A stretch of 64,000 nt of DNA from a virus. The notes below the pieces were generated by a model. That model saw only the letters and a list, made by a program, of their open reading frames with translations. It was not told the origin of the DNA and did not search any database. How positions within the stretch are numbered: position 1 is the first letter of the stretch; the number at the start of each line of letters is the position of its first letter. The position numbers and the translations under genes were made by a program. The stretch covers positions 1 through 64,000 of the IMG/VR virus record IMGVR_UViG_3300046004_001292. The stretch is one strand, 5' to 3'. Positions 11,377-26,844 of this stretch are shown here, piece by piece.

Positions 11377-11530
11377 GGGCTTTTTCGTCCCGGCCATTGA
11401 TACGGAGAAAGCCCGAGAACTCGGGTTGCGCTCAGCGGTAGCTCAGCGCCTCCGTATCAAAGCCGTGGCCGTCATCAAGGACGGGATGCTCGGGGTTTGG
11501 TTTTACCGCCCCCCTCGCCCACCTCACTGA
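11336..11530 (+). CDS. Small hypothetical protein, 64 aa
   Basis: Begins inside the last 41 bp of the primase gene and ends the plus-strand module. Basic, with LGLRSAVAQRLRIKAVAVIKDG near the centre, of which the hydrophobic part could be a strand pair. Its stop overlaps the last 7 bp of the opposing 2619-residue gene, so the two modules converge without a spacer. No clear Shine-Dalgarno is visible, hence moderate confidence. Confidence 0.5.
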   Translation: MKLNYPWSRLQPGEGFFVPAIDTEKARELGLRSAVAQRLRIKAVAVIKDGMLGVWFYRPPRPPH

Positions 11531-14500
11531 TCCTGCACTTGCCGCACACGCTGGGTGAAGCGCTTCGCCGCCTCGTCCGCCGCTTTCTCAAGGTTGTCGA
11601 TCCGCACCCGCTTCTCGGCGGCAGTCAGGTCACTGCGCTCCTGAGTTCTGCGCAGGTCCGCGTTGATGCGCCCCACCAACTGGCGGTATTGCCCGGCAGC
11701 CGAGGCCACGGCCAGACGCGCACGGTTCTCGTCACGGTAGGCCACGGCGTCTTCCCGGCGACCTTCTGCCACGAGCTTGTTGAGCGTCGTCTTGGCGGTC
11801 ATGGCCTTCTCTGCCATCTCGTACGCAACGTCCTTGTCGCCTCCGCCGTACTTCTTCTGGAAGGCAGGGCCAAGCACAGGCAGCTCGGACAAGCGCTTCT
11901 CTGGGGCCTCGCCCTTGCCTTCCCGGGCAAACAACCCGTTGGTGGTAGCAACAACAGCCAGCGGCAGCACGCCAAAATAGCCGCGCACAATGTGCTCGAT
12001 CTGGATGGGAGACAAGATAGGCAGCGCCTTGCTCATCGCCTTGGCCAGCTCCGTGGTGTTGGCGTTGTAGCGCTCCTCGGTGTCCATGCCTTGGAAGCGG
12101 CGGGACTCGATGTCGCTGCCTGACATGAAGTTCTTGTTGGTCCAGACCTCGAACGCAGGCTTGACGATCTGTGGGATGCCCATGGACGAGTACCCGGGGA
12201 TCGAGTTCAAGAACATGTCCTTGAGCGCCTTCCACTGCTCTTTGCTGTCGGTCTCGGCACGCATGCCGTCCACAGCGGCCACGGCCAGCGAGTAGAAGTA
12301 ACCGGCTTCAAACGGGATGGGCAGTTTGATTGGCTCGTCCAGCCCGGGGATTGGCAAGAAGAAGTTGGTGTACTTGTCCCGTGGGCGTGCGTTGCGGAAG
12401 GTCTCGTCATCTTCCATGGCCATGGCGTAGACGAGGCCGGTGGCCACCAACAGCATGGCGTTGTTGAAGAACTTGCGCTTGATCTGTTGCTGCTCCTCAA
12501 ACGGCATGTTGCCACGCGCTGCCTTGAACAGCACGTTCAGACCCTGAATCTGGGCGTTGAAGAACGGGATCAATCGGCTGGCGTACTGCAGCGTTGGAGA
12601 CAGGCCGCGCTTGTAGAAGTTCATGGACTCCATGGTCATCATGTCGGCTTCGACATCGGACAGACCGTTGGCCTCGGCGTTCTCGTACACCAGTGAGCGT
12701 GTGGCGGCATCGGCACGCAGCGCGGCACGGTCAGCCGCAGCAAACACCTTGTCCATCACGCTCTGGTCTTTGCCGCTGGCGATCTGCAGCGCCATCTTTT
12801 TCATGTCCGAAGTGTCGCCCGCAAAGATGCCGGACTGCACCAAGCCCTTTTCCAGCAGCTTCATCTGAGCGTCACTGGTGCCCCGGTTCATGCGCACGAA
12901 CTCTTTGCCCGCCTTGAGCACGGCAGTGAACGCGTTGTAGTTCAGGCCACCCGTGAACGCAGCGGCCATGGGGTCACGGATCAACTGGCGCGCAATGTAC
13001 AGCGGCGTGCGGGTCACGCCCGAGCGCAGCAGATCGGCAGCCACGCCGCCCAGCTTCAAGAACTCGGGCAGCGCCAGATGTGAGCCTTCCAAGCTCTGCA
13101 CCAACAACTCAGCAGGAACGCCTTCGGCCGCAGTGCCCTTGGTCTCCACCTTGAGCCAGCGCTCGCCTGTGTCCTTCTCGTTGTTGGGGTCGGGCTCTTG
13201 CTTGAAACGGATCACGCCCGGGTCAGCCGGACCGGTGCCGGAGTGAATCTGCATCACGTCCGACTTCTTGCCCATGGCCTGCAACGCGTAGGCCACGTTC
13301 TTTGTGGCCATGTTGGTCAGCGCCATGTCGGTCAGCAAGAACGTGTTCAGCGGCAGCGACTCGTTGAGCGGCAAGATTTTGGTCTCACCACCTTTGAGCG
13401 ACGCGAGGTACGGCTGGCGGCGGATGTCACCGATCGAGACCATCACGTTGTTGCCAAAGTTCAGCTCGGCCATGCCGTTGTCCTTGACGCGGTAGTAGGG
13501 CACGTAGTCCCCACCGGCCAGCAACTTCTCAGCAACCTGTTTTGGAATGGCACCAGAAGCGGCCAAGAAGCTGATCTGCCCCTTGTTGTAGGCGTTGTAC
13601 GCCCGGCGCACGGCTTCGAGTGACTTCTCCAGCGCTGGGTCAGCTTCGACAGCCGCCATGGCAGCGTCCAGCTTCTCTTGCGTCACGCCCAGTTCCCCGA
13701 GGTCCAGCTTCGACAGGCCTTTGTTGGCTGCGCGCTGGGCGATCATGTACGTGGTGGCCACGTCGATCTTGCTCTGGGTGTCGGTGCCGGGCATGTCTGC
13801 GATGGCGTCGAACACATCCTTGGCGCTGTGCTTGTTGGTGCTGCGCACGCCGTAGAAGCCCTTGGCATCTTTGTACAGCTCCAGCGGGCCCATGCTCATG
13901 ACGGTGTACGCCACGGGCATCTTCTGGTCGGCCTTCAGCACGTTGTACATGGCCTGCGTGAACTTGGTGTCGTCACCCATTTCGGCAGCGCCCGCCTTGA
14001 ACACCTCACGCAGCCCGGCACGCATGTCCACACCCTGCATCTCAGCCTGCAGCGCCACGGAGTCACCCAGCTTTTGCTTGAGCGTTTTGGGCTGGGCCAC
14101 GATGTCCCGAGACAGCGCCTCGATGGCATTGGCAGATGTTTCGGGCTCTGCCCGCATAGGGCTTACGTCCGCCAAGAAACCACCAGCGGGGGCTTTGCCG
14201 CTGTAAATTTCATTTTTGGTTACATCCAAAACTTCTTCGGTAAGCGCCACAGCTTCTGCAAACAGCGACTGCGCAGCTTTACCCGGCATGTTAAAGAATT
14301 GCGCCAGTGTTTCAACAAAGCGTGTGAAGATGCTCTTGCGTGGTTTGCTTGAAGGGATTTCTGCCAGCAGCTTCTGGAACTCACGGTTTGCAAAAAGTTC
14401 GGCCACAAACTCTTTGTGGTTTGTGAGTCCGTAAATTCCGGCAGGAGTTTGCGCCAGCCCCATCTTGTGGTTGCGAAAATATGCGCGCCCTTCGGGTGTA

Positions 14501-17500
14501 GCCAACCAAGACGCCGTTTGCTGCCGCAGCGACTCCATTTGGTCTGCCAAATCAGTGCGTAGTTGCATGCCCCGTACCGTGGCCGCATGTGTAAGCTCGT
14601 GCAACAAAACTTTGTTGGCGCTCATCCCCGCTGTAACAGGGGCGCGAGTGTAAATCACGTCGTGGCGTGAACTGTAAATACCTGCAGCGTTTCCCTTGAG
14701 CAGCCGATCAATTGCGTAAACCCGCCCTGCCCCTTCTTGTACAGGCGCTGCAGCAAACACGTCTGCGAGTTTCTCAAACAGCGCACGAACTTGCGGCGAC
14801 GTTGTGCGTTTTGCGCCGTACCGAGCCGCTTCGGCAAACGTCATCCCGTGGAAAGGAGCGTCTTTGACGAACGTCGTGCCTAAGTTTTTTGCAACTTGAT
14901 CTGAGGTGTAGTCTTCCGCCGTGTTACGTACGGGCTTTTGCGTAGGGGCTATCGCCGCTTTTTTAGCAAGCAGTGTTTTTACGGGTACACGCGGTGCTAC
15001 TTTTGGCTCAGTGTCCGAAAAATCTTCAACTCGCATTTTCCTAAGTTCGGCCAGCAGTTGCGTATCCTCCGCAACGTATTCCCGATACTTTGGGTTACCG
15101 GAAAAAACTTCGAGGTCGGACTTTGTTTCCGCAATTGCTTTTGCTAGTGCGTCACGAATCTTTTCTGAAAAAGGAATTGCGCGGCGATCTCGGCCTACTT
15201 GGCGTTGGACCGCAACCGCTGCTGCGGCTTCCGCTGTGTCGTCTGTTGGGAGTGCGCCTTTGTAATACACGGGGATGTATTTGAGTCTTAGAGCCTCTGA
15301 GGAACGCAACAAGTCTTGCGCTAACCTTTCTCGCGCACGCGCTTGCATTTTTTCAAGCGTTGTCGGGCCACCAATCTCAACGGCAGCGCCGCCGGGCTCA
15401 CCCTTGCCTTCAAACAAAGTCTTCTGAGGCTGGCGTGCTTTGGCTGCTTGCGAGCGTGTAAGAGGTTCGCCGGATGTTGATGCGCCGGTTGTGCGCACAC
15501 TTGCGTCTTCTACGCGCCGCGCACTTGCTTGCTCGCGCTCTTCAGCAGTGGGCTTGGCCCGGACTTTTGCTGCGGAGGGTGCTTCAAGTTCGATGCGTCC
15601 TTCCGAGATCATGCCGGACAACCACTCTTCCCGCGCAATCACGTCTGCCAGTTGTTTGATCTGCGACTTCATGCCGACCCAGATAACGTCAGTGTTGCTC
15701 AGCTCCGCTTTTGCTCGTGCAAGTTCGGCCTCCGCCACGTCCAGCTTAGGGCCAAGGGCATCGCGCTCTGTCGCAGACTTAGCCTGCTTGTACGCTTTGG
15801 CCAACGCATCGCGCAGATTTTGTTTGGGCTCCACCATGTCCCGGCCAAGCGCGGCTTTAGATTTGTCTTGCGACTGCTTGATGGTTTTTTCGAGCGCCGT
15901 GATGCGCGCGCGATAACCGCCCAAAACCCGAGCAGGGTCGCCGCCGATGGCTATTTTTTCGCCAGCGGTCAGGTCTGGCAGTGTGCCGCCTTTTTCTCGT
16001 GCAAGCAGCTGGGCTTCGGTCAGCGCAGGGTACTGCGTGGCCTTGTCGTACAGCGGCAGGTTGTTGAGCGCCTGTTCTGCAGGTTTGATGCGCCCCGCTG
16101 CCACCTGCGCGTTGCGTTCAGCTTGGCGAACAGCCTCGTCAGCGCGTTTCTTGTCAGCGGCGTCTTTGCGCATACGGTTCTGCAGCTCTTTGTTCTCCTC
16201 CTGCAAAACGCCCAGCTCTGTCTGCACCGCCCGCAACTCTTGCTTGGCTTGGTCGATTCGCTCGACCGAAGGAGCCTTGTCAATAAGTGCGGTCAGCTTT
16301 TGAACGGCTGCAAAAGACTGCAACTGCCCATCCAACACCGACAGCGCGGAGTTGAGAAGCGCCATGTCTGTTTGAGCGTCTTGTAGCTGTGCATTGACGG
16401 CGTCAATGTTTGCCACCAGCTCTTGCACACCACCTTCGTTGTAGCCTTGTTCGATGACTTGCTTACGCGCTTGCTTGAGGTCTTCAATTGCGCCAGCCAA
16501 CACCATGCGGTCCACCGTGGACTTACCGGCTGCCGCACGGATGTCCGCCATGTCGCGTTTGGCTTTGGCCACGTCTTTGTTGGCTTTTATGATTGCGTCA
16601 GCGTTGCGGTACTCGGCGTACTGCTTGAGGATGTCCTCAATTTCGGCCACGAGCGCGTTGGCACGTTTTTCCAAAGCAGGGATAGCCTGCGCGCGCTTGG
16701 CAATTTCTTCGTCGCGTCGCAGTTGCTGGCGCAAGTTCTGCACAAACTTGCTCTTCATGAACATCTGGAATGCGCCACGATTGCCTTTGATGGCCCCGAG
16801 CTTTTCTTGCTCTTCTGGGAACAGCGACTTCTGCCCGGTATCGACTCGCGCAGCCTCTTCCTGCATGCGCAGCGGCTCGCTCAACTCGCGTGCCAGAGAC
16901 AACTCGCCCGCGCGCGCAGAAGGACCACGCAGCGTTGAAGGTTGTGTGTCCGCCACGCGCTTGGTAACGTCGGCTGCGCCCCGCACGCCTGTGCGGCGGT
17001 CTTCGACATCTGGTTGGGCAATAGGCGTCTTCAATCCTGACGCTGCTTGGCCCGGTTGTGCTCCAGTGATCTGGCGCACTTGGCTGGTGCCTGCTTCTGT
17101 TGGCGCGGTAGTGGACGCCTGCGCTTGCTGTTCTGCCGAAGGGGGGAAAGTTTGCAGGTCCAGTGTGCGGCTCTGACCTTTACGCGGCACGCCTTCCGCA
17201 CCGCTTTCAATCTTGGCCAACTGTTCGTCCAACAAAACAAAATAGTCAGCCCCCGACTGCGGCAACGCTTTCTCGGCGCGGAGCAAGAGGTCTGCTGCTT
17301 CAGGAGACAGGTCATAAGCGGCCAGCACACGGTTGAGCCGGTCTGCCAACTCTTCCCGGGTAACGGGTGCGGTGCCTTCGTTGCGGCCACGAAGTTTGAA
17401 TTCAGCGCCGGGTACTCGGCGCAAGTTGCGGGCTTTTTCTTCCTCGGCCGTGAACGTGACGTCGTCGCCTGTCAGCTTCTGCTGCATCTGCCCCATGGCA

Positions 17501-19383
17501 GCGGACCCGGCCGGTGCGGATTGCTCGGTGCCAAAAAGGCTGAACTGATCGGACAGGTTTGCCCCCAACGAGTACGGCGTGGTCTCGTCAAACACACCGC
17601 GAGACCCGGCTTGTGGAGCGCCCATCCGTTGCAAGCCAGCAAACTCTCCGCCAAGCGCTTGCTCGCGCTGCGCCTCTTGGATGTCGCGCTCGGTTTGCGC
17701 ACGTTGCTCTTCCAGCGCGGCCTGCTCTTCCGCTTCCACACCTGCTACGCGTTGTTGACTTGCGGCGGTGCCCAGACGCCCCTGTGCGGCGCGGGTCTTC
17801 TCGTACTCCTTGATCTGCAACGCCAAGCCGCCCAAAAGCGTTTCGTTCTGGCGTTTTGTCAGGCCGGGCATAGGCGTGCGTGTCTGCACTACATCCATAG
17901 CTTTCAGCGGGTCCACCATCAAGTAGCTGGCGTAGTCTGCAACAGTTGGGGGCGTGATCATCTGCTGGTCAGCCAGCGCTTTTTGCTGCGCCACGTACTC
18001 TTGCACGGGATCAACGCGCTGTGCCATGGCAAACGGGTCGCCTTCAACCGGGGCAACTTTCTTCGGCACCCCCACACCCTGCTGCGCAGACGCTTGCTCA
18101 GCGGCGTATTCTTCAGGCGACAGCCCGGCAACACGCGCTTCTTCGGCGGCAGCGGCTTGCTCTTGCGCAGCACGGGCTCGGATGGGTGCGGTGCGGCGGT
18201 ACTCGGGCACGATGTCTTTGAGCTGCGCGTTGATTTCCTTGATCGCCTTCTGGGCGTCGGCGTACTCGGCCTTCTCGACCGGTGTGGCATCTTTGCCCGG
18301 TGTTTTGAGCGCGGCCTTGCGTGCTTGGAATTCTGCCAACAACGTGTCGTACTCTTGGCCAACCCGCAGAGCGTGGTCTGGGGTCTGGCGCTGGGCTTCC
18401 GCTGCTTGCTCTGCAACACGTTGCTGTTCGGCGGCTTGCTGGGCCAACACGCTGCGCTCCTCGCGCTCGGCCTTGGCTGCCTGTGTCTGGGCCCCGCTGC
18501 GCTCGATGTACCGACCTGCAGGTGCAAGCGTGCCGCCCAGCACCGCGCCGCCGATAAAGCTGTCGATGTACTCTTTGCGGGCTTCGGGGTCAGCGATGTT
18601 CAGGCCTGCTTGCAAACGCTCCAGCGTCTGCTGGGCAACCTCTGTGATGCCTTCACGGCCCATGGCCATGCCCGTCTTGGCGGTGTAGTCCATGGCGGCT
18701 TTGCCCAGCGTCTGGCTGGCGATGGCCTTGGCCTGCTCTGTCGTCAGCTTGGAGCCCACGGAGCCAAACAACTTGCCCACACCGGGCAGCAACGCCATGG
18801 CGGCAGTGTCGATCAGCGCTTGAGGGACGGCTGCGGCAGCCGCTTTGCCAAGGCTGGCTTCTTCCAGTGACTTGCCGGTGTCCATCTGCCGCGCCAAGTT
18901 GGAGCCTGTGAACTGGCCCGTGGACACAGCGCCTGCGCCCAGCAAACCCAAGCCAGCAGCAACCGGGGCAGTAACCGGCGCGGCCAAAGCGGCAAGGCCT
19001 GCGGCTGCCGGGGCAGCCATGTACGGCAGGGAGCCGCCAAGGGTCTCTTTAAACTTCTGGAAGGGGGCTTCGGTCCAGCCTTCTTCGGTGGGAGTGAAGC
19101 GCTCTTGTGCGCGTTTCTGCGCAGCCTCGTACTCCTTTTGGGCCTCGGCCTCGCTCTTGACGCCCAGCTTGCCTTTGAGCAACTCAAACTCACCGCCCAG
19201 TCGGGTGGCACCGGCAGACATCGCGGCCTTGAACCCCTTGGTGTCTTGCTTGGGTTTAGCTTCTTCTTCTAACCCGAAAGCCTCGGGGTACATGCGCTGC
19301 GCCCGCTCCCATGTTTGCGCGGGGGTTTCTCCCTCACGAATTGCTACAGTTGTGCCGTCGGGTAGAGGGATTGCTTTTGCCAT
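11524..19383 (-). CDS. Giant polyvalent-like virion/ejection protein with zincin motif
   Basis: 2619 aa. The N-terminal ~110-230 residues contain long Ala/Gly hydrophobic stretches (glycine-zipper style, MAAPAAAGLAALAAP) able to enter membranes. Residues about 300-1150 are Glu/Gln/Arg-rich coiled coil. Around residue 1590 there is a zinc-protease motif LLHELTHAAT, followed about 65 residues later by KEFVAELFAN, a likely third ligand. The C-terminal third has the IPIPFEAGYFYSLAVAAVDGM style seen in 'large polyvalent protein' domains (LPD38-like, from memory). Such proteins are thought to be injected with the DNA and act early in the host. It is the last gene of the minus-strand transcript and has no separate transglycosylase motif that I could see. 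Confidence 0.8.
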   Translation of the reverse strand: MAKAIPLPDGTTVAIREGETPAQTWERAQRMYPEAFGLEEEAKPKQDTKGFKAAMSAGATRLGGEFELLKGKLGVKSEAEAQKEYEAAQKRAQERFTPTEEGWTEAPFQKFKETLGGSLPYMAAPAAAGLAALAAPVTAPVAAGLGLLGAGAVSTGQFTGSNLARQMDTGKSLEEASLGKAAAAAVPQALIDTAAMALLPGVGKLFGSVGSKLTTEQAKAIASQTLGKAAMDYTAKTGMAMGREGITEVAQQTLERLQAGLNIADPEARKEYIDSFIGGAVLGGTLAPAGRYIERSGAQTQAAKAEREERSVLAQQAAEQQRVAEQAAEAQRQTPDHALRVGQEYDTLLAEFQARKAALKTPGKDATPVEKAEYADAQKAIKEINAQLKDIVPEYRRTAPIRARAAQEQAAAAEEARVAGLSPEEYAAEQASAQQGVGVPKKVAPVEGDPFAMAQRVDPVQEYVAQQKALADQQMITPPTVADYASYLMVDPLKAMDVVQTRTPMPGLTKRQNETLLGGLALQIKEYEKTRAAQGRLGTAASQQRVAGVEAEEQAALEEQRAQTERDIQEAQREQALGGEFAGLQRMGAPQAGSRGVFDETTPYSLGANLSDQFSLFGTEQSAPAGSAAMGQMQQKLTGDDVTFTAEEEKARNLRRVPGAEFKLRGRNEGTAPVTREELADRLNRVLAAYDLSPEAADLLLRAEKALPQSGADYFVLLDEQLAKIESGAEGVPRKGQSRTLDLQTFPPSAEQQAQASTTAPTEAGTSQVRQITGAQPGQAASGLKTPIAQPDVEDRRTGVRGAADVTKRVADTQPSTLRGPSARAGELSLARELSEPLRMQEEAARVDTGQKSLFPEEQEKLGAIKGNRGAFQMFMKSKFVQNLRQQLRRDEEIAKRAQAIPALEKRANALVAEIEDILKQYAEYRNADAIIKANKDVAKAKRDMADIRAAAGKSTVDRMVLAGAIEDLKQARKQVIEQGYNEGGVQELVANIDAVNAQLQDAQTDMALLNSALSVLDGQLQSFAAVQKLTALIDKAPSVERIDQAKQELRAVQTELGVLQEENKELQNRMRKDAADKKRADEAVRQAERNAQVAAGRIKPAEQALNNLPLYDKATQYPALTEAQLLAREKGGTLPDLTAGEKIAIGGDPARVLGGYRARITALEKTIKQSQDKSKAALGRDMVEPKQNLRDALAKAYKQAKSATERDALGPKLDVAEAELARAKAELSNTDVIWVGMKSQIKQLADVIAREEWLSGMISEGRIELEAPSAAKVRAKPTAEEREQASARRVEDASVRTTGASTSGEPLTRSQAAKARQPQKTLFEGKGEPGGAAVEIGGPTTLEKMQARARERLAQDLLRSSEALRLKYIPVYYKGALPTDDTAEAAAAVAVQRQVGRDRRAIPFSEKIRDALAKAIAETKSDLEVFSGNPKYREYVAEDTQLLAELRKMRVEDFSDTEPKVAPRVPVKTLLAKKAAIAPTQKPVRNTAEDYTSDQVAKNLGTTFVKDAPFHGMTFAEAARYGAKRTTSPQVRALFEKLADVFAAAPVQEGAGRVYAIDRLLKGNAAGIYSSRHDVIYTRAPVTAGMSANKVLLHELTHAATVRGMQLRTDLADQMESLRQQTASWLATPEGRAYFRNHKMGLAQTPAGIYGLTNHKEFVAELFANREFQKLLAEIPSSKPRKSIFTRFVETLAQFFNMPGKAAQSLFAEAVALTEEVLDVTKNEIYSGKAPAGGFLADVSPMRAEPETSANAIEALSRDIVAQPKTLKQKLGDSVALQAEMQGVDMRAGLREVFKAGAAEMGDDTKFTQAMYNVLKADQKMPVAYTVMSMGPLELYKDAKGFYGVRSTNKHSAKDVFDAIADMPGTDTQSKIDVATTYMIAQRAANKGLSKLDLGELGVTQEKLDAAMAAVEADPALEKSLEAVRRAYNAYNKGQISFLAASGAIPKQVAEKLLAGGDYVPYYRVKDNGMAELNFGNNVMVSIGDIRRQPYLASLKGGETKILPLNESLPLNTFLLTDMALTNMATKNVAYALQAMGKKSDVMQIHSGTGPADPGVIRFKQEPDPNNEKDTGERWLKVETKGTAAEGVPAELLVQSLEGSHLALPEFLKLGGVAADLLRSGVTRTPLYIARQLIRDPMAAAFTGGLNYNAFTAVLKAGKEFVRMNRGTSDAQMKLLEKGLVQSGIFAGDTSDMKKMALQIASGKDQSVMDKVFAAADRAALRADAATRSLVYENAEANGLSDVEADMMTMESMNFYKRGLSPTLQYASRLIPFFNAQIQGLNVLFKAARGNMPFEEQQQIKRKFFNNAMLLVATGLVYAMAMEDDETFRNARPRDKYTNFFLPIPGLDEPIKLPIPFEAGYFYSLAVAAVDGMRAETDSKEQWKALKDMFLNSIPGYSSMGIPQIVKPAFEVWTNKNFMSGSDIESRRFQGMDTEERYNANTTELAKAMSKALPILSPIQIEHIVRGYFGVLPLAVVATTNGLFAREGKGEAPEKRLSELPVLGPAFQKKYGGGDKDVAYEMAEKAMTAKTTLNKLVAEGRREDAVAYRDENRARLAVASAAGQYRQLVGRINADLRRTQERSDLTAAEKRVRIDNLEKAADEAAKRFTQRVRQVQDQ

Positions 19384-19448: not shown

Positions 19449-21185
19449 TTATGGGCGAGTCGGTTTGTCGATGTCAACCGCAGCCGGGGGCGCATAGAAC
19501 GCGGCAGATGTGCGACGGAACTGGTCCAGTGTGAGTGGCTTTTCCATGTTCTTTTCACGACGACCGTTTTCTTCCAAGAACAGTTTGAGCAACTGCGTGC
19601 CTTGCTTGTCGCCCGTAAGTTCTTTGTACTTGGTCATACCGGAGGCAAAGCGCTCCGCATCTGTCGTACCCGTTCCCAAAAGCATTGCTGCGCGGGCCTC
19701 TGCAGGAAGCGCCCCTGCCCGGGCGTTTGCGCCGCGCTCTTGCATGGCCGCAATGCTTTCGCGTGAAGCCAGCTCCGCCTTCTTCTCTTGTCCCGACATG
19801 TACGATGTGAACGTAGCCTCCGCCTGTTTCCTGTTCATACCGTATACGTCTTTGGCAAAACCAAAAACCATCTTTTGGCCTTCAAGAATGGCGCTGTCAC
19901 GATCTTTTTCTAGCGCACGAATCTCACGGCTGTTGAGGTCTTTCCGGTTCAGACGCAGCTCAGAGATTCGGTCGTTGGCCTCATCCAAACGCTCCTGCGC
20001 TGCGCGCAGGTCTTTGATACCGGCGGCGTACTGGGCCGTACCGACCTGCGCACCTTTACCGATGGCCTCCATCAGCTTGCCCGGAGTGGACATGATTGCA
20101 AGACCTGCGTTGAGTAGGGCCAGTCCGGTGTTTTCATTTTTCTGCGCCGCAAGGCCCTTGGCGCGTTCAACAAGTCGATCGGAACGGTCTTTGTACACAT
20201 CCCCCTCAGACTCAATTTCTTTTTTGCGATCGTCAAGGCGCTGCTGCACTTGCATGTCCGCTTTGTTTCTGATTTCAACAAGCTGGTTGCTCAGTTCCCC
20301 GATTTTGTAGTTCGAGTCTCCCATGGCCTCCGCTTGCGCTTTCCGAATAGCGTCCATGCTAAACGGGTCAGCAGCAGGGCGTGCGGCAGGAGCGCCGATG
20401 CCCGAAACCTTGCGGCCCGTGTCAGCTTTGGCGGCTGCAGGCGCGGTGGGTTTTGGCTTGTCTGCGGCTTGCTTTGCTGCGCGCTCTGTCATGTACAGGT
20501 TGGACGCAGCGTCGAACTGCGCCATGTCTTGCGCGGCACTGGCGTTGGCAGCGGCAGCGGTGTCGGCTTTTCCAATACGTGCTTGGTCTTCGGCCGACAA
20601 AGGTTGCCCTTTAAGCGCGCGGATACGTGCCTCTTGCACACGCTTGGCTTCGGTTGATTCGCCAAATTCCCTTGCCCAACGACGGAACAGTGGCTCGTCT
20701 TCTGCAGTGCGCGGCTGTGTTTGAAAGATGCTTGTGCCCGCAACAAAACCGGGGATGTCGCCTGTCAGCGACTGCGCGCCCCCACCAGCCTGATACCGTG
20801 CCACACCGCCCTCGGCCATCATCATGACGGGCTCTTGGCTGTAAGCCATACCGCCTTCGTCGTAGCCGTCATAGCCCGCGATGCCGCCGTCAGCCATCTG
20901 CTGCATGTTCTGTGCAGGTAGAGCCGCAAGCCCACCATCGGCCATCATGACCGGCTCTTGGGGAGCCATCTGGGCGATGGCCGCGTCAGCGACTTTGGGT
21001 TGCGGCTGCATACCTTGCATAGCTTGGCCAGCGGCACGCAGCTCTTTGCGGCGGTTGGATTCGGATGCAGCAAGCGACACGATGTACGGGTCATTCTTGT
21101 GCATCTGCGCGTAGTTCTGCAGCGCCGAATCCGGCTGCAGTTTGGCCAGCATGGATGTGAGCTGGTTGACGTTGATTCCTGCCAT
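19449..21185 (-). CDS. Internal virion/ejection-type protein, 578 aa
   Basis: N-terminal helix, then a low-complexity part with repeated DGG turns (MADGGLAAL, MADGGIAGY, MAEGGVARY at about 80-135). An Ala/Lys/Pro linker and a long coiled coil (about 290-430) follow, then a helical end. This is the style of proteins found downstream of the nozzle gene in short-tailed marine and freshwater phages, where they are presumed to be core or DNA-ejection proteins. Two sister genes of similar composition lie directly upstream. No enzyme motif was seen. Confidence 0.6.
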   Translation of the reverse strand: MAGINVNQLTSMLAKLQPDSALQNYAQMHKNDPYIVSLAASESNRRKELRAAGQAMQGMQPQPKVADAAIAQMAPQEPVMMADGGLAALPAQNMQQMADGGIAGYDGYDEGGMAYSQEPVMMMAEGGVARYQAGGGAQSLTGDIPGFVAGTSIFQTQPRTAEDEPLFRRWAREFGESTEAKRVQEARIRALKGQPLSAEDQARIGKADTAAAANASAAQDMAQFDAASNLYMTERAAKQAADKPKPTAPAAAKADTGRKVSGIGAPAARPAADPFSMDAIRKAQAEAMGDSNYKIGELSNQLVEIRNKADMQVQQRLDDRKKEIESEGDVYKDRSDRLVERAKGLAAQKNENTGLALLNAGLAIMSTPGKLMEAIGKGAQVGTAQYAAGIKDLRAAQERLDEANDRISELRLNRKDLNSREIRALEKDRDSAILEGQKMVFGFAKDVYGMNRKQAEATFTSYMSGQEKKAELASRESIAAMQERGANARAGALPAEARAAMLLGTGTTDAERFASGMTKYKELTGDKQGTQLLKLFLEENGRREKNMEKPLTLDQFRRTSAAFYAPPAAVDIDKPTRP

Positions 21186-21194
21186 GATTTTTCC

Positions 21195-22211
21195 TTATGC
21201 CATGTTGGCGATTGCCAAATCGGCCAGACCAGAACCTACGTAACCGCCACCGGCAAACGCGCCCAGCCTGCTTGCGCCAAGAGCTGCGGTGCCCAAACCG
21301 ACGGCTTGCGACATCGTGGATGGTGGGGGTGTGAACATCGACTGCGACTGCTGTGTCAGAGGCAGGCCACGGATCATGTCGGACATAAAGCCCAACTGCT
21401 GGTACGGGCGCTGCTGCGCGTTCAGGAAGTCTTGGTACTGTGCGCCGAGGATGTTCTGCACCTGCTGTTGCTGCTGCCCGCCGTACTGGTTCTGCAGCTT
21501 GTTGATGTCCAGCATCTGCCCGGTGTACTGCCCGCCAAGCGTGCCAAGTTGACCGGCTGCCCCCAGCGCCAGTTGACCGCCTTGCATACCGAGGCCCGCA
21601 CCGTACTGCGAAGACTGCTCGCGCAACTGCGCGGCTTGTTGTGCAGCTTGCTGCTCAGCGTTGAACTGGCTCATGGCTTGGCTATAGGCGTCCTGTGTGC
21701 CCTTGTTCTGGATGTCGCCCATCTGCATGGCCAGATTGCGCTGAGCCTCGGCGTTCTCGATGGCTTGGCGGGCACCACCAAACGCACCAGCCCCTGCAGC
21801 TTTGGCACCGCGCTGAGTGCCCGCAATGTCTGCTTGGCGCTGCGCTTCGCGCTTGTTGATGTCCACCACCTGCTGCATGTACGGCGACATGTACTTGTCC
21901 GCAGCGCCGGGCTGCGTGAAGCTCTGCGACTGGTATTGCGATGGGCCGTACTGCGTGCCCAGCCCGCGCTGCGCTGCCAACTGGGCAAGACCTGTGGCCT
22001 GCTCGATCTGAGCGGCTGGGGCCATGGAGCCGATGTTTGCAAACGACTGTTGCTGCAGGGGGTTGAACTGCGCATAGCGCTCGCCTTGGTACTGCAGGTA
22101 CGGGTTGGACGACAGGTCTGTAAGACCGGCTGCCTGCCCCAGAAGCGTTTCCGCATAGGGCTTGAGTACGTCGGAAAAACCGTACTGCGTTTCGGTGGTT
22201 GTGGTTGCCAT
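21195..22211 (-). CDS. Gln/Ala-rich ejection-type virion protein, 338 aa
   Basis: Gln, Ala and Gly dominate (AEQQAAQQAAQLREQ, GGQQQQQVQN). The middle is probably a long helix, and the end is Gly/Ala-rich (LGAFAGGGYVGSGLADL), which could insert in a membrane. Composition and place between two other ejection-type genes suggest an internal virion protein analogous in role, not in sequence, to T7 gp14. Spacing to both neighbours is under 12 bp. Confidence 0.55.
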   Translation of the reverse strand: MATTTTETQYGFSDVLKPYAETLLGQAAGLTDLSSNPYLQYQGERYAQFNPLQQQSFANIGSMAPAAQIEQATGLAQLAAQRGLGTQYGPSQYQSQSFTQPGAADKYMSPYMQQVVDINKREAQRQADIAGTQRGAKAAGAGAFGGARQAIENAEAQRNLAMQMGDIQNKGTQDAYSQAMSQFNAEQQAAQQAAQLREQSSQYGAGLGMQGGQLALGAAGQLGTLGGQYTGQMLDINKLQNQYGGQQQQQVQNILGAQYQDFLNAQQRPYQQLGFMSDMIRGLPLTQQSQSMFTPPPSTMSQAVGLGTAALGASRLGAFAGGGYVGSGLADLAIANMA

Positions 22212-24984: not shown

Positions 24985-26844
24985 TTATCTCCTACCGTCA
25001 GGGCGAATGTCCATACGTGGTGCACCGAGCTGCCACGTGGTGCCAACTTGGCTGGAGTCCAGCTTGAAAATCAGCTGCCGACCGCGCACCCGGGTGTAAA
25101 TCTGCCCGGTGAACTCCTCGGTGATCACGTACGTGCTGCCTTTGACCACGGCCTGACCGGCAGAAGCGGTGACCCCGGAGCCCGAGTTTGTGAGCCCTTG
25201 CAGGGTCATTGTGACCTGCGGGGCGGGGGAGGGCGAGGAGCCGCCAAACGTCAAGTCCGGGAGCACGCGCCAGACAAACCCGAAGTTGTGGCCGTCACCA
25301 ATGTCAAACTCCGAAGACGAGATGTTCGACACAATGGGGGCGGGCATCGCTGTGGAGTTGTCGTCCACGCCGTCTTCGTGGTTGACGATGTTGTTGATGT
25401 AGGTTGCGGCAATCGGGTACGGCTGCAGGCCGGTGTCCAGCCACGCGGTGCGGCCCATGGTGCCGTAGTACCAGATTTTTTCGAGGTAGTTGTAGATGAC
25501 ATACCTGTCCACCACGGTGGAACCGGCCGAGCAGTAGAACCACCAGACCTCGTTGAAACCCTCGTTGGTGCCAGCAAACACCTGCGCGGCCTGATCTTGG
25601 TTGAAGTCACTGAACACGTAGCGGCGCAGGTCGCAATTGAGCGTCTGCACCCGGCCGTCGTACGCGTAGAACTTGTCCACGCCCATCCAGTAAATCACGC
25701 CAGAAGCCAGCGCCACGGCGTTGGGGCCCGCGATGGAGATGTTGTCCGCAAGCAATTGCGTGCCCCAGACATAGGGTGGCCCAAGGTACTGCAGCGAATA
25801 CAGCGCCTGATCGGTGAACGTGACGATTTCCTGCCGGGTCTGGATGGCCGTGACAATTTCAGAGCCGTGTGACAGCCGGATGCTGCCTGCTTGGTTGGTG
25901 ATGGCCGGAGCCCACGTAAAAGGGTCTTCCTGATCCGACCAGCGGATCAGCATGGGGTCGATCGTTGCCGCGCCGTAATCGTTGGTGCCAAACACCAGCA
26001 CAAAGCGGGACGAGTCCGATACGATGATTTTGTTTTGAAACAGCGGCGTGTCTGCGTCACCTGACACGGTCAAGTTGACCCCCCGAACAGTAACTCCGGC
26101 TGAAGCGTCCCAGTAGTAAATGCCCCCGCCGCGCGGCCCAAAGATTAAATCTTCGCCAAAATTGAACTGGTTCCACAACTGCAAGGGGATCGGGTCTGCC
26201 GCTCCTGTCCCCCACGGGCCAGCACCCCAACCACCTGCGCCCCACCCAACAAGCGGGATTTGAATATCGGGGCCCGTGTTAAGTTGGTACGCAGCAACGA
26301 CCGCTGCCCCGCCGCCGGGAGAACCTGACACGTCAGTGGCGTTGGCCACCGCAGAAACTGTGATGGTGTAGCTGTTTGCGCTCAGGACGGTGACTTGGTG
26401 CTCCGCATTCAGCACGCCCGCTGTGATGTTGCCGCCAAGGCCTGCTGCCCCGCTGAAGGTCACAAAATCCCCAGTGAGGCAGCCATGTGCGGTGTCCGTG
26501 ACGGTGATGACGCTGGAGCCCAGCGTGGCCACGAACGGGTTGTTGTTGATGGTGGGTGTGGCGCGGATTGGCGTGATGTCGTAGTACTGCCCGCCCAGAT
26601 TGATGTAAAACTTCAGGTTTGTACCCACGCCCAGCAGGTTGGCTCCGCCAAGGGTGATCCAGTTCCACAGCGACCGGCAAACGCCCAAAAACGTGAACGC
26701 GCTGAAGCGTGTCCAGCCACCAATCTTCTCAGGGTTGCCTTGGCGAAAGCGCACCTTGTCGCACTCGTACCAACCCCCTTCGGTGGTGTACCGTGTGTTT
26801 TCCCGGTTGACCCCGGGTTTGAACAGTATTTTCTGAAGTGGCAT
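24985..26844 (-). CDS. Tail nozzle / tail tubular B-like protein
   Basis: 619 aa, beta-rich throughout, as expected of propeller-type nozzle (T7 gp12) or P22 gp10-like stabilisation proteins. The N-terminus KPGVNRENTRY followed by CDKVRFRQGNPEKIGGW is the recurring opening of this phage family. Later segments such as VSDSSRFVLVFGTND, MLIRWSDQEDPFTW and VIYWMGVDKFYAYDG look like repeated propeller blades. Residues about 105-185 form an insert of Thr/Val/Gly-rich beta structure. It should close the head-tail channel together with the adaptor encoded further upstream. Confidence 0.75.
   Translation of the reverse strand: MPLQKILFKPGVNRENTRYTTEGGWYECDKVRFRQGNPEKIGGWTRFSAFTFLGVCRSLWNWITLGGANLLGVGTNLKFYINLGGQYYDITPIRATPTINNNPFVATLGSSVITVTDTAHGCLTGDFVTFSGAAGLGGNITAGVLNAEHQVTVLSANSYTITVSAVANATDVSGSPGGGAAVVAAYQLNTGPDIQIPLVGWGAGGWGAGPWGTGAADPIPLQLWNQFNFGEDLIFGPRGGGIYYWDASAGVTVRGVNLTVSGDADTPLFQNKIIVSDSSRFVLVFGTNDYGAATIDPMLIRWSDQEDPFTWAPAITNQAGSIRLSHGSEIVTAIQTRQEIVTFTDQALYSLQYLGPPYVWGTQLLADNISIAGPNAVALASGVIYWMGVDKFYAYDGRVQTLNCDLRRYVFSDFNQDQAAQVFAGTNEGFNEVWWFYCSAGSTVVDRYVIYNYLEKIWYYGTMGRTAWLDTGLQPYPIAATYINNIVNHEDGVDDNSTAMPAPIVSNISSSEFDIGDGHNFGFVWRVLPDLTFGGSSPSPAPQVTMTLQGLTNSGSGVTASAGQAVVKGSTYVITEEFTGQIYTRVRGRQLIFKLDSSQVGTTWQLGAPRMDIRPDGRR

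Follow-up and report, generated by a model that had tools for sequence, protein, structure and literature searches.

A giant phage protein with an LPD38 end and a predicted zincin protease domain related to those of N4 and phiKMV-type ejection proteins

The window, that is the whole stretch of 64,000 nucleotides analysed here, covers positions 1 to 64,000 of the 65,394-bp virus record IMGVR_UViG_3300046004_001292. Its minus strand carries a giant gene (11524..19383), present as a single full-length copy in the record. The open reading frame starts with ATG, encodes 2619 amino acids plus a stop and contains no internal stop codon; the 2619-residue frame reported in an earlier note on this DNA is therefore real. 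Along the minus strand, the gene order is terminase, portal, structural and tail genes, lysozyme, an 816-aa gene, phrog_4287, a 578-aa gene and the giant gene. The latter is the last of the leftward operon and a convergent replication gene faces its end. Homologues of the 578-aa gene, located directly upstream (19449..21185, minus strand), were found in 7 of the 9 related records tested. The phrog_4287 gene, two genes upstream of the giant gene, encodes a 338-aa DNA ejection protein (21195..22211, minus strand; E 2.3e-16) with homologues in 8/9 related records. The giant gene occupies the position within the ejection cluster that is typical of podovirus ejection (pilot) proteins, and it sits among late/virion genes as expected of phage polyvalent proteins. 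The same strand also encodes a 619-aa virion structural protein (24985-26844; phrog_3287, E 8.6e-64) showing a weak match to an endosialidase beta-barrel.

The modules of the giant protein are all given here with their minus-strand positions. The N block (residues 1-300; 18484..19383) is kept in relatives, mostly at 45-95% identity. It contains an Ala/Gly-rich hydrophobic stretch (residues ~112-205; 18769-19050) in which residues 127-145 form one Kyte-Doolittle window above 1.6. The "membrane-active segments" proposed earlier are thereby borne out only in part. The variable middle, or cargo (residues 301-1500; 14884..18483), is mostly replaced in relatives and gave no Pfam family above cut-off. 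It includes a coiled-coil-rich stretch (residues ~905-1330; 15394..16671), the heptad signal being strongest at 869-1120. Significant heptad periodicity at residues ~869-1120 and 2563-2618 agrees with the coiled coils previously noted. Next comes a zincin domain of class A (HExxH type; residues ~1505-1735; 14179..14871). The interval first proposed for a protease, ~1330-1750, does contain this domain but was drawn too wide. The C block (residues about 1741/1752-2619; 11527..14130) is mostly helical and common to all relatives. It bears LPD38 (PF18857; residues 2329-2504; 11872..12399; E 7.7e-27), which substantiates the "polyvalent-type end" and is the sole Pfam match above cut-off in the whole protein.

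Only one enzyme-type domain was recognisable in Pfam and PHROG scans. No polymerase module appeared in these scans, only the zincin stretch matching the N4 family. An NCBIfam scan and a direct search of the whole protein against the PDB gave no match, and no prophage relative sought in bacterial genomes was confirmed. Relatives were found at 26 viral-contig loci, with conserved N and C blocks and a mostly replaced middle. Judged by its sequence, the giant protein belongs to the phage polyvalent proteins, being large and multidomain with LPD38 and a zincin.

Within the zincin domain, HELTHAA occupies residues 1595-1601. The HELTH motif (residues 1595-1599; 14587..14601) would provide two predicted zinc-ligand histidines and the general-base glutamate, and E1658 in NHKEFVAE (14410..14412) is the predicted third zinc ligand. 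H1595, E1596, H1599 and E1658 do not vary across the alignment of the family (81/81 members). Many of these members were fetched by a HEAVHAAT-containing pattern, E1658 being the less biased column. The four residues were also invariant in the first 8-sequence alignment, across phage groups that share little else. In the predicted model, HExxH is carried by helix 88-108 and the glutamate by helix 156-165, which is the arrangement of zincin-like MPTases. Elsewhere in relatives of the giant protein, an HExxH or HExxxH motif is very infrequent. Given the invariance of the predicted ligands and general base, the HELTHAA motif singled out by the earlier note is a genuine zincin site. We infer from the kept general-base glutamate that the domain would cut peptide bonds.

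By profile comparison and predicted structure, the window domain belongs to the zincin family of N4 vRNAP and of phiKMV/PhiM1-type internal core proteins. Against the PDB, our A1 profile retrieved structures of phage ejection proteins, namely 9sfn_G (E 1.6e-53, a match partly built in since the profile includes phiKMV-like rows), 23sg_S (3e-9), PhiM1 gp48 8vb2 (7e-8) and N4 vRNAP 9pnr (0.001). A profile of the C-block relatives alone matched phiKMV-like core proteins at 1e-12 to 1e-13 and, in a single-target search, N4 at 3.5e-6. The window zincin domain by itself matched the PHROG "virion RNA polymerase" with E 2.9e-4. HExxH and HExxxH profiles align with each other (hhalign 93%, E 2.8e-7). 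The predicted fold is closest to N4 vRNAP 9pnt (Z 9.4, 164 residues, 3.8 A), Z values of 8-9 being modest for a model of 1119 residues with a mean pLDDT of 70.6, mostly 75-90 in the zincin part. This fold match lies at 2373-2595 in entry numbering, which disagrees with the 2124-2375 published for C1, although the sequence match is at 2223-2323. M34 peptidases came next and PPEP-3 lower (Z 5.8); the HExxxH model likewise matched M34-type zincins (Z up to 7.4). Plain Foldseek with the whole model gave no PDB match under 0.001. The N block had no match to N4, phiKMV-like proteins or DdrB. When viral contigs were scanned with the zincin alone, taken from the window or from a Rhizobium phage, almost no matches came up, owing to the divergence of the family; the first alignment of zincins had too much diversity to be used for scanning. 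A shared zincin fold does not by itself show a function.

Relatives were also recovered through the C block. An HExxH or HExxxH motif was present in 63/63 testable non-redundant C-block proteins. In all, 64 non-redundant proteins had a recognisable C block and the single motif-less one begins at a contig edge. As these proteins were fetched by whole-protein or C-block similarity, their support is independent of the motif pattern. None of the testable proteins found through the C block alone had lost the general-base glutamate, whether of HExxH or HExxxH type. In 39 of the 63 proteins, the motif lies 122-172 residues before the C block, and hence in the 100-200 residues preceding it, as compared to 0.013 expected per protein. 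The other 24 have it at a greater distance from the C block, on the N-terminal side, some of them with a further domain intervening. The sequences thus point to an obligatory pairing of the zincin motif with the C block, which is new here. At the locus L043 (7682-8611), the intervening domain is ART-PolyVal (E 1.2e-28). Similar WHGS/T-type stretches, below the Pfam cut-off, occur in L012 and L026. In L104, L100, L107, L095 and L101, a leucine/valine-rich repeat-like domain separates a distant HEGTH-type zincin from the C block; it had no clear family match in L104, the one tested.

Pairwise comparison of relatives shows that the protease, of HExxH or HExxxH type, is often replaced wholesale while a cargo of about 80% and a C block of 70-99% identity are kept. 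L020 and L017 have cargo 85% and C block 99% identical, L080 and L075 81% and 91%, and in both pairs the zincins are without match. Between L026 and L043 (cargo 81%, C block 87%), the protease differs completely. The window protein itself keeps its middle in L016 (79% over ~810 aa; C block 70%), yet the zincins do not match. The converse, similar proteases beside unrelated cargo, was also seen. Since the protease differs while cargo and C block are kept, the slot is conserved and its occupant changes. We read this exchange as the result of selection that maintains proteolysis while its specificity changes; host targets or inhibitors would fit.

Phage polyvalent proteins with LPD38 and an MPTase, of both HExxH and HExxxH types, have been described (Iyer et al. 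2017, PMC5512222). The window protein resembles them by its very large size, multidomain organization, virion-gene neighbourhood, zincin-like MPTase and LPD38, and by ART-PolyVal in some relatives. Unlike them, it has no recognisable cargo enzyme, its middle consisting of coiled coil and low-complexity sequence. In the part of that article considered here, no description was found of an obligate C-block/protease pairing or of wholesale exchange. As in N4 gp50 (C1 zincin and C2 helical), a zincin of the same family precedes an extensive helical region at the C-terminus, and the protein would be the largest of several products of neighbouring genes that are ejected from the virion. Unlike gp50, no RNA polymerase module was found, and no similarity could be detected between the sequences of the C block and of N4 vRNAP, C2 domain included. 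The tetrameric ejection proteins phiKMV-like gp37 and PhiM1 gp48 (PDB 9sfn, 8vb2) share the zincin family and an ejection operon but have ~1300 aa, with the domain inserted in the hub and no LPD38 C block detected. The PhiM1 ejection protein was resolved inside the capsid (PMC11440229). Bcep22-like JC1 gp69 (4515 aa) is likewise giant, with a C-terminal LPD38, and is encoded at the end of the virion morphogenesis module; it was found in virions with 51 unique peptides (PMC9144972). It differs by its DarB-type methylase/helicase and transglycosylase domains. In the main text on PTXU04, the virion bands identified are gp7, gp10, gp11 and gp12, none of which is linked here to the PTXU04 giant protein.

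We consider it fairly probable that the protein is a giant ejection (pilot) protein of a podovirus-like phage, made of four modules: the conserved N block with its hydrophobic stretch, the exchangeable coiled-coil-rich middle, the zincin metalloprotease domain and the helical LPD38-bearing C block. By analogy with N4 vRNAP and the phiKMV/PhiM1 tetrameric ejection proteins, it would be packaged in the head, pass down the tail before the DNA does, and refold in the envelope or cytoplasm. We infer packaging and ejection from gene order and from the relatives JC1 gp69, N4 vRNAP and PhiM1 only. After entry, the zincin would hydrolyse a peptide bond, more likely in a host protein hindering entry or early infection than in the giant protein itself. 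The host protein is ranked above self-cleavage on two grounds: virions contain full-length N4 vRNAP, and protease exchange is independent of the cargo and of the C block. Host targeting would rest on this pattern of exchange, which could also arise from co-evolution of protease and inhibitor or of processing. The injected protease read earlier from this DNA is partly supported, by the zincin-type domain, its N4-like fold, the LPD38 end, the last place in the ejection/virion operon and the occurrence in virions of other phages of an LPD38 giant (JC1 gp69) and of related zincin-bearing ejection proteins; the host target attached to it was a guess.

Self-processing, in the head or after ejection, would free the cargo from the C block. 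It has been proposed for polyvalent proteins generally, with P1 DdrB as a precedent (Iyer et al. 2017, PMC5512222), and HExxxH-type relatives bring an argument for it. A motif [FY](SR|RT|RS|AR), such as FSR or YRT, stands just before their protease and at the C-block junction, in 13/13 and 11/13 class D proteins and in 15/24 and 14/24 class B proteins, for background expectations of ~0.03 and 0.014. It could mark a border between modules, form a structural strand or serve as a self-cleavage site. L012, L020, L026, L054, L098 and other HExxxH-type relatives carry it on both sides of the cassette. In P1 DdrB, it is found at residue 720, near a reported 76-kDa product, and also elsewhere. In class A, that of the window, it is present in 0/15 proteins before and 0/15 after the protease, and a shared bracket of class A's own showed a marginal excess equalled by 14/500 shuffles. 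The HExxxH flanking motif does not, therefore, apply to the window protein. Moreover, N4 vRNAP, of the same zincin family, is packaged unprocessed (PMC5512222), and protease type changes beside nearly unchanged cargo, though a cassette with its own sites would fit. Self-processing thus appears rather unlikely here. A zinc-bound structural domain devoid of protease activity and needed only for packaging or refolding is improbable. It would be consistent with the requirement of an N4 region including the MPTase for encapsidation (cited in PMC5512222) and with the fact that no activity report was found for the zincin family. The general-base glutamate, needless at a purely structural site, is however kept across HExxH and HExxxH types. 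The domain may nevertheless have a role in ejectosome assembly.

The preferred reading, an ejected protein with an active zincin, connects the giant "polyvalent" proteins encoded by uncultured phages with the well-studied ejection machines of N4, phiKMV and PhiM1. On this view, the largest ejection protein may contain a protease domain that was largely overlooked or labelled endolysin. We tentatively extend it, with less than even confidence, to podovirus giant ejection proteins at large: one C block would go with an obligatory, swappable protease cassette, its types changing with host adaptation, some cassettes having their own cleavage sites, and the "endolysin-like" domain of phiKMV/PhiM1 would be the same protease. 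The obligate exchangeable slot is worth following, as is the re-reading of that domain, which is probable. A peptidoglycan-degrading domain opening the cell wall during ejection would agree with the endolysin/exotransglycosidase-like assignment of PhiM1 Asp268-Asp528 from BLASTP and DALI (PMC11440229) and with GenBank names such as "internal virion protein with endolysin domain". We regard it as very improbable, and as the weakest of the rivals because this PhiM1 stretch bears the zincin signature; the predicted fold of the window domain also resembles zincin peptidases. For the zincin stretch of phiKMV-like proteins, the endolysin label is probably wrong. Indeed, both HEAAH (at 385) and, downstream of it, an HEF glutamate lie inside Asp268-Asp528 of PhiM1 gp48 (L182:4198-7989), and this stretch scores 46.8 bits with the zincin profile.
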